64,000 nucleotides of DNA from the NCBI RefSeq assembly GCF_018613195.1, contig NZ_JAGGQQ010000011.1:186001-250000 (forward strand), given 5' to 3'. This DNA comes from Bacillus sp. ISL-45 (lineage in GTDB: Bacteria > Bacillota > Bacilli > Bacillales > Cytobacillaceae). The position numbers and the translations under genes are program-made. Of this stretch, positions 14,825-47,825 are shown piece after piece; the first letter of the stretch is position 1; every line of letters begins with the position of its first letter. Under the pieces are notes generated by a model that was given only the letters and a program-made list of their open reading frames with translations, was not told the DNA's origin and did not search any database.

Positions 14825-15877
14825 TCATTCTGCCTTTACAGTAATTTGCATAACTGCATTGTATCCATACCCTTTCTCGTTCCAGACAGCTTCTGAAGGC
14901 TGGGTTTTACCTTCGGTATCGGTTGCCCGGACTGATATATGATATGAATTTCCATATTTAAAAAACTTCGCGTAACTCCATGAAACAGTTTGATGTTCCA
15001 CAGTGGGGGTATCCAGTCTGGCTTGCTCCCAATTAGCTCCATTATCAAAGCTTATTTCCACCTTTGCGATGACCCCGGAACCTGTCCAGGCGATCCCTCT
15101 GATTTCGCAGGTTCCGCTTTTAACTAACTGTCTATCAAGTGGCTGCTGGATTGTTGAATTCACTCTGTTTATAGTGACTGGCTCAGTTGTGCCGTTTTTA
15201 TAATAATAAACATAATCATCACTCTGAAAGGGCCCTTTAAATTTGTCTTTAATCAATATGATTTCATTTAGCCATTTAACAGACGCCATCCCGTACCACC
15301 CTGGAACAATCAGCCGGAAAGGAAAACCGTGTTTATGGGGGATGGGTTTCCCGTTGTACTCATATGCGATCATTACTTCAGGATCTAGGGCCTTGGCAAT
15401 TGGTAAACTTCTTTCAAAGTGGATCCACTTGCTGTTCTTGATGCCTGCGTCTCTTCCTCTAAAAACAACATCAGATACACCTTCTTTAATTCCGGTGTAC
15501 TCAAGCAAGGTTTTCAAAGGAACTCCCTTCCAAATTCCCTCACCCATCGCACCATCTTCCCACTGCTCTCCAAAGACTTTTTCTTTGAAGTATGCCCTCT
15601 TATTACCTGAACATTCAATGAGCACCCTATTGGATTTAGATGCCAGCTTCAAAAATTCAGAGTAATTGAATTGTAAAGTGTGATCAACTGAGCCGGAAAT
15701 TGTCAGCGTGAATGACTCTGGTGTTAAAATCGGATAAGAAAAGTGATTCCGGCGGTAAAATAGAGGCTCAGCAACCGGCTGAAGAAAAGAAACAAAGTTA
15801 ATCAGAGTTTCCTGATTTTCAGGGATAAGGCTTCTTGTTGTTAAGTAAGGACGCACCTTTCCAAAATTCAAGTACAT
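14825..15877 (-). CDS. Sulfite-oxidase-type molybdopterin-dependent oxidoreductase
   Basis: About 350 residues. The molybdopterin ligand Cys is in VLIECSGNKRAYF; further family motifs are IWKGVPLKTLLEY, KPIPHKHGFPFRLIVPGWYGMASVKWL, and a C-terminal Mo-co dimerisation domain (IRGIAWTGSGVIAKVEISFDNG, split here at WTG). No signal peptide or heme domain is seen, unlike secreted SorA/YedY proteins, so it may work in the cytoplasm. AGGAGG lies seven bases before ATG 15877 and overlaps a second ATG two codons upstream. Likely activity is oxidation of sulfite or reduction of an S/N-oxide; the donor/acceptor is not visible. Confidence 0.82.
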   Translation of the reverse strand: MYLNFGKVRPYLTTRSLIPENQETLINFVSFLQPVAEPLFYRRNHFSYPILTPESFTLTISGSVDHTLQFNYSEFLKLASKSNRVLIECSGNKRAYFKEKVFGEQWEDGAMGEGIWKGVPLKTLLEYTGIKEGVSDVVFRGRDAGIKNSKWIHFERSLPIAKALDPEVMIAYEYNGKPIPHKHGFPFRLIVPGWYGMASVKWLNEIILIKDKFKGPFQSDDYVYYYKNGTTEPVTINRVNSTIQQPLDRQLVKSGTCEIRGIAWTGSGVIAKVEISFDNGANWEQARLDTPTVEHQTVSWSYAKFFKYGNSYHISVRATDTEGKTQPSEAVWNEKGYGYNAVMQITVKAE

Positions 15878-16020
15878 ATTCATTCCTCCTCATCGTTAAT
15901 TTATTGCTGGGACGCAAATGGAAGAACATTAAAAAGGTTTTTCGGGATGGGTGTCAAATAATATTAATAATAGGTTCAGTGGCGGAATATAAACGACGAG
16001 TTCTAACAGGGGGCAGGCAA

Positions 16021-37373: not shown

Positions 37374-37490
37374 TTTCAATATATGACAGAATTAAGCTGT
37401 TTTAAGGGAATAATGGTGAAAAATCTGCTTATTTTAGGTACAATAAGTAGATGTAGTTTTAAACATGCGACCATGGAGGTCAATAGAGAA

Positions 37491-38549
37491 ATGAAAGATA
37501 TATCAGTACAACAATTAATCAGCTCAAAGGAATATATACCAGTCGATGTCAGGGCGCCAATCGAGCATTGTGAATCGGCAATACCCGGGTCGGTCAATAT
37601 ACCATTATTCACAGACGATGAAAGACAAGAAATCGGCAGGCTTTATAAGCGGTCTGGTGAGGAGGCGGCAAAATGGCGGGCAATGGAGATTGTTTCCCCG
37701 AAGCTTCCTCGCTTGCTCGGTGAGATAAAAGATCTCAAAAAGACAGGCGCTGAACCGGTGATCCATTGTTGGAGAGGCGGGATGCGGAGCAGGTCTGTAG
37801 CCTCCTTCCTTGAATACGCTGGAATCCCCGCAATGCGTCTGGAAGGCGGTTATCGGGCGTACAGGGAATATATTTTGGAGAAAACTCCTCAGTTGCTGCC
37901 CGAAAAAGCCATCGTTATGCATGGAATGACAGGTACTGGAAAAACGGATATCTTGCAGGCTCTACAGGATAAGGGATACCCTGTAGTCGATCTGGAAAAA
38001 ATCGCAAACCACAGAGGATCCATTTTTGGAATGATTGGCAAGGGAGAGGCGCACAATCAGAAAACATTTGACGCTTTACTGTTTGAAAGGCTCAATGAGC
38101 TAAAAGGTTCCAGCTACTTTATCATTGAAGCGGAGAGCAAAAGAATCGGGCGATCAGCGCAGCCGGAAGAACTGCTATTAAAAAAAAATAATGGAATTCA
38201 TTTCCTGGTTAAAAGCTCTATACCTACTAGAGTTGAACGCATATACAATGAATATGTTCAGCCTTTTATGGGAAAAGCCTGGTTTGAAGAAGAAGTCAGA
38301 GAGAAGGTAACAAAGCTGATAAGGCGAATCAATCATGAAATATCACCCTCTTTGGCTGCAGCTCTGGAAGAAAAAAATTATAAAGATTTGATTGAGATTT
38401 TACTGGTCCATTATTATGATCCCCGGTATAACCATGCACTGCTAGAGTATGATGGTCCTTTTGTGGAAATTGATGCAGACGCCCCAGACGTCATACAAAA
38501 TATAGAAAAAGAAATACAAAAGACACTTTCTGGCTCAACTGCGGTTTAA
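37491..38549 (+). CDS. mnmH: tRNA 2-selenouridine synthase
   Basis: 352 residues (also called SelU/YbbB). The N-terminal rhodanese domain has the catalytic Cys93 in HCWRGGMRSRS; the C-terminal P-loop domain has GMTGTGKT at 145-152. It replaces sulfur by selenium at the wobble 2-thiouridine of some tRNAs, using selenophosphate from SelD. Start ATG 37491 follows GGAGG; upstream in-frame codons lack a site. Its presence suggests the organism has a selenium pathway, though selD is not in the window. Confidence 0.93.
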   Translation: MKDISVQQLISSKEYIPVDVRAPIEHCESAIPGSVNIPLFTDDERQEIGRLYKRSGEEAAKWRAMEIVSPKLPRLLGEIKDLKKTGAEPVIHCWRGGMRSRSVASFLEYAGIPAMRLEGGYRAYREYILEKTPQLLPEKAIVMHGMTGTGKTDILQALQDKGYPVVDLEKIANHRGSIFGMIGKGEAHNQKTFDALLFERLNELKGSSYFIIEAESKRIGRSAQPEELLLKKNNGIHFLVKSSIPTRVERIYNEYVQPFMGKAWFEEEVREKVTKLIRRINHEISPSLAAALEEKNYKDLIEILLVHYYDPRYNHALLEYDGPFVEIDADAPDVIQNIEKEIQKTLSGSTAV

Positions 38550-45829: not shown

Positions 45830-46963
45830 ATGGGAATGCAAGCAATAACTGTTGAAAAATTAAATGAATGGGTAGTAAACAAAAATGAATTTTTTATTTT
45901 TGACGTAAGGAATGTTAAAGACTTTGAAGACTGGAAGGTTGAAGGTGAAAAAATTAACTACCTTAATATCCCTTACTTTGACTTGATCGATGGAGTTGAC
46001 GAAGTAGTTGACCAGCTTCCGAAGGATAAAGACATCGTGGTCATCTGTGCTAAGGAAGGTTCTTCAGTAATGGTTGCTGAGATGCTTTCTGATGCAGGTT
46101 TTGATGTTTCCTATCTTTCTGGCGGGATGAAATCCTGGAGTGAATACCTTTATCCAGTTGAAGTATATAAGGATGAAAAAGTCAAAGTCCTTCAGTTCAT
46201 CCGTGTTGGGAAAGGCTGTCTTTCATACATGGTTCTTTCTGAAAATGAGGCACTTGTTGTGGATCCTTCAAGGTTCACGAACCGTTATACTGAAGTTGCA
46301 CAAAGGGAAAGTGTGAAAATCACACATATCGTAGATTCTCACCTTCATGCTGACCACCTATCCGGCGGCAAGGAGCTGGCTGAGGTCACAGGAGCGAAAT
46401 ATTACCTGATGAAGAGTGAAGGCGCAGTATTTGGCTTTGAAGCGCTGGAGCAGCATGATAAAATTGAATTCGAGAACATTACACTTGAAGTCTTGGCGGT
46501 TAAGACACCTGGTCATACCCCGGGTAGTGTTTCTTTCTTTGTGAATAATAAACTTCTTTTCTCAGGCGATACTATCTTTGTCAATGGGCTTGGCCGGCCT
46601 GACCTTGGCGGAAAAGCTGCAGAGTGGGCAAAAGATTTGTATGATACTGTTTATAGCAAAGTATCCCAAATTGCAGATGACGTTATTGTATTGCCGGGCC
46701 ACTATGCTGCCTTTGATGACGAAGTAAATGAAGAAGGGTTCATTGGAAGCCAATTAGGTTTGATCCGCGAGCAAAATGAAATTATGGCCGGTAAAACAGT
46801 TGATGAATTTGTCGACCATGTAGCTCAATCTGCATCAAGTGAGACACCGCCAAATTTTGAAGAGATTGTTGCGATCAACCGCGGTGTAAAAGAAGTGACA
46901 GCAGAAGAAGCGATGGAGCTGGAAATCGGCCCTAACCGCTGCGCTGTACACCACACTCACTAA
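45830..46963 (+). CDS. Rhodanese - metallo-beta-lactamase fusion (persulfide dioxygenase-type)
   Basis: 377 residues. N-terminal rhodanese domain (1-105) with the sulfur-carrying Cys in VVICAKEGSS; then an ETHE1-like metallo-beta-lactamase domain with THIVDSHLHADHLSGG, GHTPGS, LFSGDTIFVNGLGRPDL and LPGHYAAF. Such fusions (CstB/YrkH-like) oxidise persulfides to sulfite or thiosulfate in sulfide detoxification. GGGAGGA precedes the ATG. A CsoR/CstR-type palindrome lies in the promoter region, agreeing with induction by sulfane sulfur. A clean terminator follows. Confidence 0.9.
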   Translation: MGMQAITVEKLNEWVVNKNEFFIFDVRNVKDFEDWKVEGEKINYLNIPYFDLIDGVDEVVDQLPKDKDIVVICAKEGSSVMVAEMLSDAGFDVSYLSGGMKSWSEYLYPVEVYKDEKVKVLQFIRVGKGCLSYMVLSENEALVVDPSRFTNRYTEVAQRESVKITHIVDSHLHADHLSGGKELAEVTGAKYYLMKSEGAVFGFEALEQHDKIEFENITLEVLAVKTPGHTPGSVSFFVNNKLLFSGDTIFVNGLGRPDLGGKAAEWAKDLYDTVYSKVSQIADDVIVLPGHYAAFDDEVNEEGFIGSQLGLIREQNEIMAGKTVDEFVDHVAQSASSETPPNFEEIVAINRGVKEVTAEEAMELEIGPNRCAVHHTH

Positions 46964-46998: not shown

Positions 46999-47028
46999 AA
47001 GTATAATGATTGCTTATGAGGTGAGGAT

Positions 47029-47199
47029 TTGGAAGAAAATAAGAAAAATAACCATTGTGCAGGCGGTTCCTGAGGAATCGGACCAAAGCGTACAGCTGAT
47101 GAAGGGCAAGGGAAGTTTTCTGGCTTTCCGCCCATATGACCAGCCACGTACGTATGGCTCCTGGCAGGAGTCATTTATTTGATTTCTAAGTTATTCTAA
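47029..47199 (+). CDS. Candidate two-UGA selenoprotein, or decayed Cys protein (56 codons)
   Basis: From TTG 47029 (GAGGTGAGG just upstream, TATAAT at 47002-47007) the frame stays open to TAA 47197-47199 except for two TGA codons at 47071-47073 and 47137-47139. With U for TGA the protein reads MEENKKNNHCAGGSUGIG at the N-terminus, then PKRTADEGQGKFSGFPPIU, then PATYVWLLAGVIYLISKLF, a single C-terminal membrane helix. The first U follows a CAGGS stretch, like a CxxxxU redox motif. No other stop types occur. It sits between a persulfide dioxygenase and a flavoprotein, and mnmH elsewhere implies selenophosphate. The alternative is a pseudogene with two nonsense changes from Cys/Trp codons; the neighbouring frameshift supports that view. 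Confidence 0.45.
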
Positions 47200-47256: not shown

Positions 47257-47825
47257 ATGCTAGATGTAATAGTGATTGGAGGCGGGATTTCAGGTGGATC
47301 AGCTGCAATTTATACTTCCAGGGGCGGATTGAAAACTTCAGTCATCGATTCAGGAAAATCCCAAATCAAACAAGTTTCAAAGCTTTTTAATTATCCGGGA
47401 ATCAAAGGAATTACCGGTTCAGAACTTCTGGATAACATTAAAGACCAGGCTATTGATGGGGGTACTGAATGGCTTGAGGGTTCGGTTGAAACAGTCACAC
47501 GGAACGACCATGGCTATTCAGTCAAATTGGCTGATGGCAATGAAAGATTTGCAAAGTACCTGATTATTGCCACGAACCTTCAAACCTCGTTGCTTGAAAG
47601 CCTTGGATTCGAGCTGGCAGTTAATGAGAAGGTACCTAGCGGTAAAATAAAAAAGGTCTTTGGGGTTGAGCACGATGGAACTACAAAACTCCCGAATCTT
47701 TTATCACGAGTCTGTTGGCAGGTCTTTCAAGTCAATCCGTCATAGCTGCGGGACATGGCGCCTCTATCGGAATTTCGATTGTGTCCAAGGAAACTGGAAA
47801 ATCCTATATGTGGCATGACAAGTAA
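47257..47825 (+). pseudogene. Half-size FAD-dependent oxidoreductase, frameshifted near its C-terminus
   Basis: Starts MLDVIVIGGGISGGSAAIY (dinucleotide-binding GxGxxG) and resembles the FAD half of thioredoxin-reductase-like proteins without the NADP domain or CxxC. The frame ends early at 47745, but after one lost base in the T-run near 47699-47703 another frame continues with the expected LLAGLSSQSVIAAGHGASIG ending and stops at 47825; the restored protein is 189 residues. AGGAGGG precedes the ATG. The shift may be real, a sequencing slip, or programmed; the first two are likelier. Confidence 0.75.

Follow-up and report, generated by a model that had tools for sequence, protein, structure and literature searches.

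SECIS elements of Archaea and eukaryotes reside in the 3' UTR, where they can serve more than one UGA. For bacteria, the bSECIS model set out in the accessible parts of PMC13188914 comprises an apical loop of 3-9 nt with a G in one of its first two places, a stem of 4-16 bp, a distance of 16-37 nt from the UGA for most elements, and an MFE of <= -7.5. Table 1 of PMC13188914, an inventory of 119 selenoprotein families from 2026, includes several multi-Sec proteins (MbdU, TsoB, UXX-star family 1, VhuD and others) and cites Haft and Tolstoy 2025 and Haft and Gwadz 2023 for some families.

Here we describe a small gene of Bacillus sp. ISL-45 (assembly GCF_018613195.1; 4.6 Mb, 99.84% complete, placed in the genus of Mesobacillus). 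It lies in a window of 64,000 nucleotides, by which we mean the whole stretch of DNA that was analysed (contig NZ_JAGGQQ010000011.1, positions 186,001 to 250,000); all features are listed in Table 1. With TGA read as U, the gene encodes LEENKKNNHCAGGSUGIGPKRTADEGQGKFSGFPPIUPATYVWLLAGVIYLISKLF, followed by a stop. An earlier sequence-only reading had noted a 56-codon frame interrupted by TGA alone, twice, with the motifs CAGGSU and PPIUPA, and translation confirmed this, the two UGAs being codons 15 (UGA1) and 37 (UGA2). The C-terminal membrane helix that it had named is also predicted by hydropathy, with a 17-residue mean of 1.95 in the window protein and values of at least 1.6 in all 74 family places read (see below). 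As for expression signals, a ribosome site and a TATAAT had been named; both are present in the sequence, whereas the promoter scan reported no -35/-10 pair at the TATAAT, so that this promoter is unproven. The best explanation, which we consider likely, is a functional selenoprotein gene in which both UGAs would be read as Sec to give 56 residues, with a hairpin presumably shared through a long-range helix and a putative part in a sulfur or electron relay. As established by sequence comparison, both UGAs are conserved, coding constraint continues past each of them, a hairpin of SECIS type follows UGA2, and the stretch behind UGA1 stays complementary, despite sequence change, to the stretch preceding that hairpin.

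Table 1. Features of the dual-Sec gene and its surroundings (window coordinates)
Feature	Position	Strand	Basis or remark
mnmH, tRNA 2-selenouridine synthase	37383..38549	+	NCBIfam NF008750, 340 bits, cut-off 241
Rhodanese + metallo-beta-lactamase protein, upstream of the Sec gene	45830..46963	+	Pfam PF00753, PF00581
TATAAT, possible -10 element without matching -35	47002..47007	+	sequence
Ribosome-binding-site-like GAGGTGAGG, ahead of TTG start	47018..47026	+	sequence
Putative dual-Sec small membrane protein gene	47029..47199	+	56 codons, TTG start, TAA stop; translation, relatives, alignment
Conserved Cys ahead of UGA1	47056..47058	+	Cys in 72/74 family places
UGA1, predicted Sec codon in C-x4-U-G	47071..47073	+	TGA in 74/74 family places read; TGT in Halalkalibacter oceani (L199)
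Predicted long-range helix, 5' arm GCGUAC (UGA1 +17 to +22)	47088..47093	+	permutation tests; codons nearly frozen in genus
Predicted C-terminal membrane helix	47134..47184	+	hydropathy
UGA2, predicted Sec codon in P-x-I-U-P-[AG], edge of membrane helix	47137..47139	+	TGA in 74/74 family places read; TGT in G500
Predicted long-range helix, 3' arm GUACGU (UGA2 +11 to +16), directly ahead of hairpin	47148..47153	+	folds and permutation tests
SECIS-type hairpin UGGCUCCU-GGC-AGGAGUCA (UGA2 +18 to +36), apical loop GGY	47155..47173	+	family pairing; stem also in scan
Terminal stop TAA	47197-47199	+	translation
Thioredoxin-reductase-like N-half protein, downstream; frame broken in this strain	47257..47745	+	sequence/family matches

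The Sec-decoding set of the genome is complete. We found selA (560 bits, cut-off 268), selB (365.6 bits, cut-off 242), selD (395 bits, cut-off 125) and the tRNA-Sec gene selC (58.3 bits, cut-off 47), the latter also called as SeC by ARAGORN. The selD gene itself contains one in-frame TGA, as does each of two homologues of FdhA (formate dehydrogenase) above cut-off, and hairpins are predicted 3' of the UGA in SelD and in both FdhA. The four genes that the sequence-only reading had proposed to look for are thus present, and so is mnmH, which needs selenophosphate and which that reading had named within the window. Unlike the archaeal and eukaryotic SECIS systems, the genome has the bacterial selA and selB.

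A search with the read-through protein identified 75 places in 73 of the 193 genomes of the family; one partial match with a single TGA (in G051) was left out, and 74 places were read. While the inner sites are constant, the terminal stop drifts (52 TAA, 14 TGA and 8 TAG), which provides an internal control for the conservation of the inner UGAs. Among 397 genomes sampled from the order, profile A1 detected 53 places in 52 carriers. Profile A5 found members in further families of the class, in eight of 398 sampled genomes, four of the eight lying outside the order and one of these being a relic; beyond the class, four of 398 sampled genomes were matched, with one member (in G917) and one chance match. 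Two matches were dropped: that in G872 (L293) as a chance match, and that in G1133 (L299), probably a relic, because it has Ser at site 2 and lacks site 1. Invariant columns of A5 are Cys10, both Sec sites, Pro38, Trp43, Leu45 and Gly47. The gap between the Cys and the Sec at UGA1 is four residues in the window protein and usually four or five in relatives.

Would two nonsense mutations in a former Cys protein account for these data, as the competing view in the sequence-only reading had it? A few copies are indeed decaying, with an extra in-frame TAA in G059 and in the second copy of G182, and an extra TAG in G495 and in the second copy of G452. The same two TGA codons are, however, present in members of many genera down to 33% identity to the window protein, with conserved RNA structure, and relatives do not show random stop types at these positions. 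The natural sense codon is Cys, found once per site: in L199 a TGT replaces the first TGA and the second is kept, whereas G500 keeps the first and has TGT in place of the second. The only other sense codon was the Ser in the relic of G1133, and the places read contained neither Trp codons at the two sites nor a form with Cys at both. Among 20 members of the genus, differences per site at codon positions 1/2/3 amounted to 0.103/0.068/0.414 upstream of UGA1, 0.102/0.052/0.383 from UGA1 to UGA2 and 0.045/0.011/0.147 downstream of UGA2. Third positions vary most in all three segments, a protein-like pattern indicating coding constraint past each UGA. Together with the co-occurrence with selA described below, these observations leave a pseudogene with virtually no probability, and the dual-Sec reading came through the refutation tests that were run.

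A locus search with the TGA pattern retrieved 103 stretches, 80 of which were read as members or decayed copies (among 80 listed, 59 that fit a strict motif and 7 that are variant or decayed; of the other 23, 14). The remaining 23 stretches, without the upstream motif and from unrelated taxa including streptococci, were discarded. No hit to the TGA pattern was found in viral contigs. The corresponding search with Cys in place of Sec returned nothing, because its pattern demands a Cys codon at site 2. Some records deserve separate mention. Two loci of Halalkalibacter nanhaiisediminis (L184, L267) have a third in-frame TGA near the N-terminus (MSAKUKEDHC), which could mark an additional Sec, a start that has decayed or a stop lying upstream. 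In L230 (MAG RSA8), PIUPGTIVWLL is preceded by an in-frame TGA without adjacent Cys; this frame may be remotely related or match by chance. Records under the titles Chryseobacterium sp. ISL-80 (L163) and Pseudomonas sp. ISL-84 (L203) hold members of Bacillaceae type and are probably mislabelled or contaminated assemblies.

The gene is essentially confined to Sec-decoding genomes. In the order it occurs in 50 of 181 genomes with selA versus 2 of 216 without (p 6.5e-17), and in the family in 71 of 172 versus 2 of 21 (p 0.004), so that 50/52 and 71/73 carriers, respectively, possess selA; a carrier's selA status was taken from the E-value where no cut-off row was printed, and no carrier was borderline. 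The four carriers lacking selA are G171, G175, G452 and G523, and in the two of them that were scanned (G171 and G175) no tRNA-Sec exceeded the cut-off. All four share one related cassette with plasmid pBO1 of Cytobacillus oceanisediminis 2691: identity to pBO1 is 99.99% across 10,138 bp for the loci of G171 and G175, and 93.6% (G452) and 92.8% (G523) across about 8 kb for the other two. We infer that these four represent cassette transfers into hosts unable to decode the gene.

The cassette itself (L079, L080, L081, L192) comprises 10 kb of sulfur-carrier genes together with the Sec gene, in pBO1 and two genomes at 99.99% identity, and appears to be a case of a selenoprotein gene moving into hosts seemingly unable to read UGA as Sec. 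The published gene order of pBO1 is TusA, glutaredoxin, DsrE, MBL, TusA, TauE, DsrE, a "peroxiredoxin family" protein and rhodanese, then a gap, which is the site of the Sec gene, and then a hypothetical protein, CcdA and redoxin. The PLSDB gene table of pBO1, itself incomplete, has no feature at the Sec gene, an example of how gene finders can miss it entirely.

The sequence-only reading had suggested looking for a SECIS 3' of each TGA. This expectation held for UGA2, where positions +18 to +36 read UGGCUCCU-GGY-AGGAGUCA or a variant across the family, and failed for UGA1, which has no common hairpin. In 65 of 69 unique segments all seven core pairs of the UGA2 hairpin are formed; 99% of core cells are paired, versus 23-61% with one side slid, and the C-G pair at 21-33 is swapped to G-C in three of the 69 segments. 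Synonymous choice within the hairpin is nearly frozen: all 109 unique genes counted use CTG for the second Leu of WLL, whereas the other Leu codons of the same ORFs are distributed over TTA (101), TTG (58), CTT (52), CTG (31), CTA (29) and CTC (15). In 14 held-out genes (see below) the hairpin core is always complete and the Leu codon is CTG in 13, the exception being L217 with CTA and the loop AGC. Against synonymous shuffles the hairpin reached a mean z of -2.30 (n=101), with 91% in the top 5%. In the window it has a 3-nt apical loop with G first, an 8-bp stem, 23 nt from UGA to loop and -10.7 kcal/mol when folded alone. Like described bacterial elements, it thus falls within the consensus for loop, stem, spacing and energy, and within every limit of the bSECIS model as given in the accessible parts of PMC13188914. 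An Rfam search returned nothing relevant.

Two further readings can be weighed at this point. Since the scan scored the hairpin and the U-rich sequence behind it as terminator-like, and since strong structure is predicted for the window mRNA between UGA1 and the stop (z -3.71 against dinucleotide shuffles), the gene might be a short regulatory leader peptide that ends at UGA1, with a terminator or a structured regulatory RNA behind it and the remainder untranslated. Amino-acid conservation and third-position bias carry on past both UGAs, however, and it is the terminal stop that drifts and not the inner ones; we regard a leader peptide as very improbable. The same low probability is assigned to near-cognate readthrough, by which the UGAs would be decoded as Trp or Cys instead of Sec. 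Reading of UGA by Trp-tRNA is known in Bacillus, but the tie to selA is strong, Cys and never Trp codons appear at the sites in the places read, and the hairpin after UGA2 has the form and spacing of a SECIS. Both readings were set aside.

How UGA1 would be decoded is less straightforward. In 109 unique segments, synonymous shuffles revealed no common hairpin 3' of UGA1 (mean z +0.11). The conserved loop lies 65-89 nt away in linear sequence, unlike the 16-37 nt of the bSECIS model as described in the accessible parts of PMC13188914. Because of this lack of a common hairpin, Sec at UGA1 rests on conservation and on the idea of a long-range helix. Such a helix was first seen in single-sequence folds and then put to a permutation test: UGA1 +12 to +29 is predicted to pair with UGA2 +3 to +17, the arms being GCGUAC/GUACGU in Mesobacillus, ACUAAUGU/ACAUUAGU in G126, CAAAACCCCAG/CUGGGGUUUUG in G314 and GCAAACGUCU/GGACGUUUGC in G007. 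The arm sequences change between lineages, yet remain complementary as predicted duplexes. For 44 genes, dereplicated at 75% from 114, the duplex with the own partner averaged -11.63 kcal/mol versus -6.64 kcal/mol with other partners (z -12.6, 0/20000 permutations), and z was still -9.9 when permutation was restricted to linker-length classes. A held-out set of 14 out of 82 further candidates, less than 80% identical to the 114 and to each other, gave -12.26 versus -7.49 (z -7.4, 0/20000); three of these genes (L292, L297, L298) had been inspected singly beforehand, and the windows were left unchanged for the test. The control window pairs yielded z values of 0.3 (upstream of UGA1), 0.1 (downstream of the hairpin), -0.6 (both displaced), 1.5 (UGA1 +3 to +11), -1.0 (hairpin 5' arm) and, for the adjacent window UGA1 +30 to +41, -3.2.

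Fixed-register analyses support the helix less strongly than the free-register permutation test. With 16-codon linkers 62.9% of cells are paired (40-61% when slid) and with 21-codon linkers 69.8% (33-48% when slid). Covariation in the 21-codon group is modest: 47/500 shuffles reach its score, 301/500 reach its count of pairs with changes on both sides, and its pair types do not exceed those of shuffles (reached in 465/500). RNAalifold runs on same-linker groups recovered the UGA2 hairpin and not the long-range helix, save for a partly related fold in one genus run. A contiguous helix scoring at least 13 is absent in 9 of the 44 genes, and 37.6% of mismatched pairs also reach 13. The fold from UGA1 to the stop has a mean z of only -1.22 against synonymous shuffles, or -0.90 once the hairpin is left out (n=114). 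Within the window's genus there is no covariation, because the arms hardly vary; its support for the helix consists in frozen codons, with Arg CGT, Thr ACG and Tyr TAC each conserved in 20/20 members.

We lean towards the view that one SECIS hairpin decodes the two Sec codons in turn, by way of a long-range helix that would be maintained by compensatory changes and unwound by the ribosome. With the ribosome at UGA1, the helix would loop out the linker with UGA2 inside, so that the one hairpin bound by SelB would come to lie about 25 nt (median) from UGA1, near the 23 nt of UGA2; the ribosome would then melt the helix and meet the same hairpin again at UGA2. A helix score of at least 15 is reached in 27 of the 44 genes, for which the predicted spacing with the linker looped out has a median of 25 nt (IQR 23-28) and lies within 16-37 nt in 23, below in two and above in two; strong mismatched pairs also show a median of 28 (IQR 23-34), so this argument is partly set by the choice of windows. 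G500, whose only UGA is UGA1, keeps the hairpin and a duplex of -10.5, and G043 and G020, with a poor helix (ranks 0.89 and 0.98), have a private hairpin 25-28 nt after UGA1; these cases fit one shared SECIS. L199 is awkward, as its -9.4 duplex is still there without a UGA1, although its change to Cys is perhaps recent. Alternatively, both UGAs would specify Sec, with UGA1 decoded independently of the helix through weak private hairpins or the distant UGA2 hairpin acting through space, and the helix would have another role, e.g. in pausing or mRNA stability. L199 speaks for this alternative, and so do the hairpins with a loop near +25 to +28 of UGA1 in six genomes (G043, G057, G060, G018, G020, G021; shuffle fractions 0.00-0.17). 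We consider it unlikely given that UGA1 has no common hairpin and that matched pairs stand out specifically in the windows under test.

A shared hairpin would resemble the archaeal and eukaryotic SECIS in that one element serves more than one UGA from a distance, but differ in lying inside the coding sequence and in being drawn towards UGA1 through base pairing. Selenoprotein families and SECIS elements as such are already known; the proposed new part is the shared-SECIS mechanism. The lack of a common hairpin at UGA1, its proposed link to the UGA2 hairpin by a long-range helix, the large family and the sulfur islands of relatives go beyond the sequence-only reading.

The family itself seems to have escaped description. 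The window protein had no match at E up to 1 in Pfam, NCBIfam or PHROG, a PDB search found none, and 43 A1 members gave only scattered weak matches to curated models (lowest E 0.014 for Pfam and 0.11 for NCBIfam). Having two Sec residues is a trait shared with the multi-Sec proteins in Table 1 of PMC13188914, but the motif of our family matches no row of that table. No such family appears in the accessible parts of PMC9312934, PMC12013277, PMC5322559 and PMC5029168, and the matches listed from the wider literature, with thin coverage of subscription papers, include no recognisable account of it. A search that relies on Cys homologues would probably overlook the family, because Cys replaces Sec at one site in one gene each and an all-Cys form was not encountered in the places read. 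The accessible parts of the deep-Sep paper state that families lacking a Cys homologue may escape its method, and that known selenoproteins all seemed to have such homologues. If our interpretation is correct, a common dual-Sec membrane family is added in Bacillus relatives, selenium becomes tied to persulfide handling in these bacteria, and RNA looping allows a SECIS in bacteria to serve a UGA far away, an option that would relax a rule of UGA-recoding searches.

Persulfide operons of the cst type comprise CstR, TauE, CstA, CstB and Sqr; we know of no Sec membrane protein in them. The protein encoded directly upstream of the Sec gene in the window is one that we take to be a CstB-like persulfide dioxygenase. 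Neighbours of the relatives are similar to such operons and include a CsoR-type repressor, TauE, MBL-rhodanese, rhodanese, TusA and DsrE. Among 101 loci (not dereplicated), counting genes that start within 3 kb and naming clusters after one representative each (Pfam), we found rhodanese at 38, TusA at 36, MBL-rhodanese at 32, TauE at 29, DsrE at 28, thioredoxin-like proteins (AhpC-TSA/Redoxin) at 27, glutaredoxin at 18, the CsoR-type repressor at 12, a presumably CoA-disulfide-reductase-like cluster at 11, CcdA-like proteins at 9 and TrxR-like proteins at 8. At least one of the five core genes (rhodanese, TusA, MBL-rhodanese, TauE, DsrE) is present in 63/101 loci and in 26/45 loci of dereplicated genomes; none of them is present in 38/101, and gene order varies. 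The sulfur-gene setting noticed in the sequence-only reading therefore recurs in relatives, whose copies often lie in TusA/DsrE/TauE/rhodanese islands. Judged by this neighbourhood only, the gene co-locates with, and may belong to, cst-type persulfide operons.

From the same neighbours we infer that the product may be tethered to the membrane and relay sulfane sulfur or electrons through its Cys and Sec residues. Its N-terminal part would contain the Cys and the first Sec, and the other Sec would sit at the entrance to the single C-terminal membrane helix. The N-terminal part would face the cytosol, as suggested by a mean net charge of +2.8 before and +0.1 after the helix, and the protein might pass sulfane sulfur or electrons between neighbouring sulfur carriers and a membrane partner. 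Candidate soluble partners are rhodanese, TusA, DsrE, glutaredoxin and thioredoxin-like proteins.

Elsewhere in the window, a SorA/SoxC sulfite dehydrogenase-like gene at 14825-15883 (-) scores below the cut-offs of those families. The frame of the thioredoxin-reductase-like gene downstream of the Sec gene is broken near 47690, whereas copies of relatives at the same place have about 189 residues. The gene for a 220-residue membrane-like protein without Pfam match starts within 3 kb of the Sec gene in 15/101 loci, about 200 bases downstream of it in G523_L280 and its relatives, and the protein is a candidate for the membrane partner.
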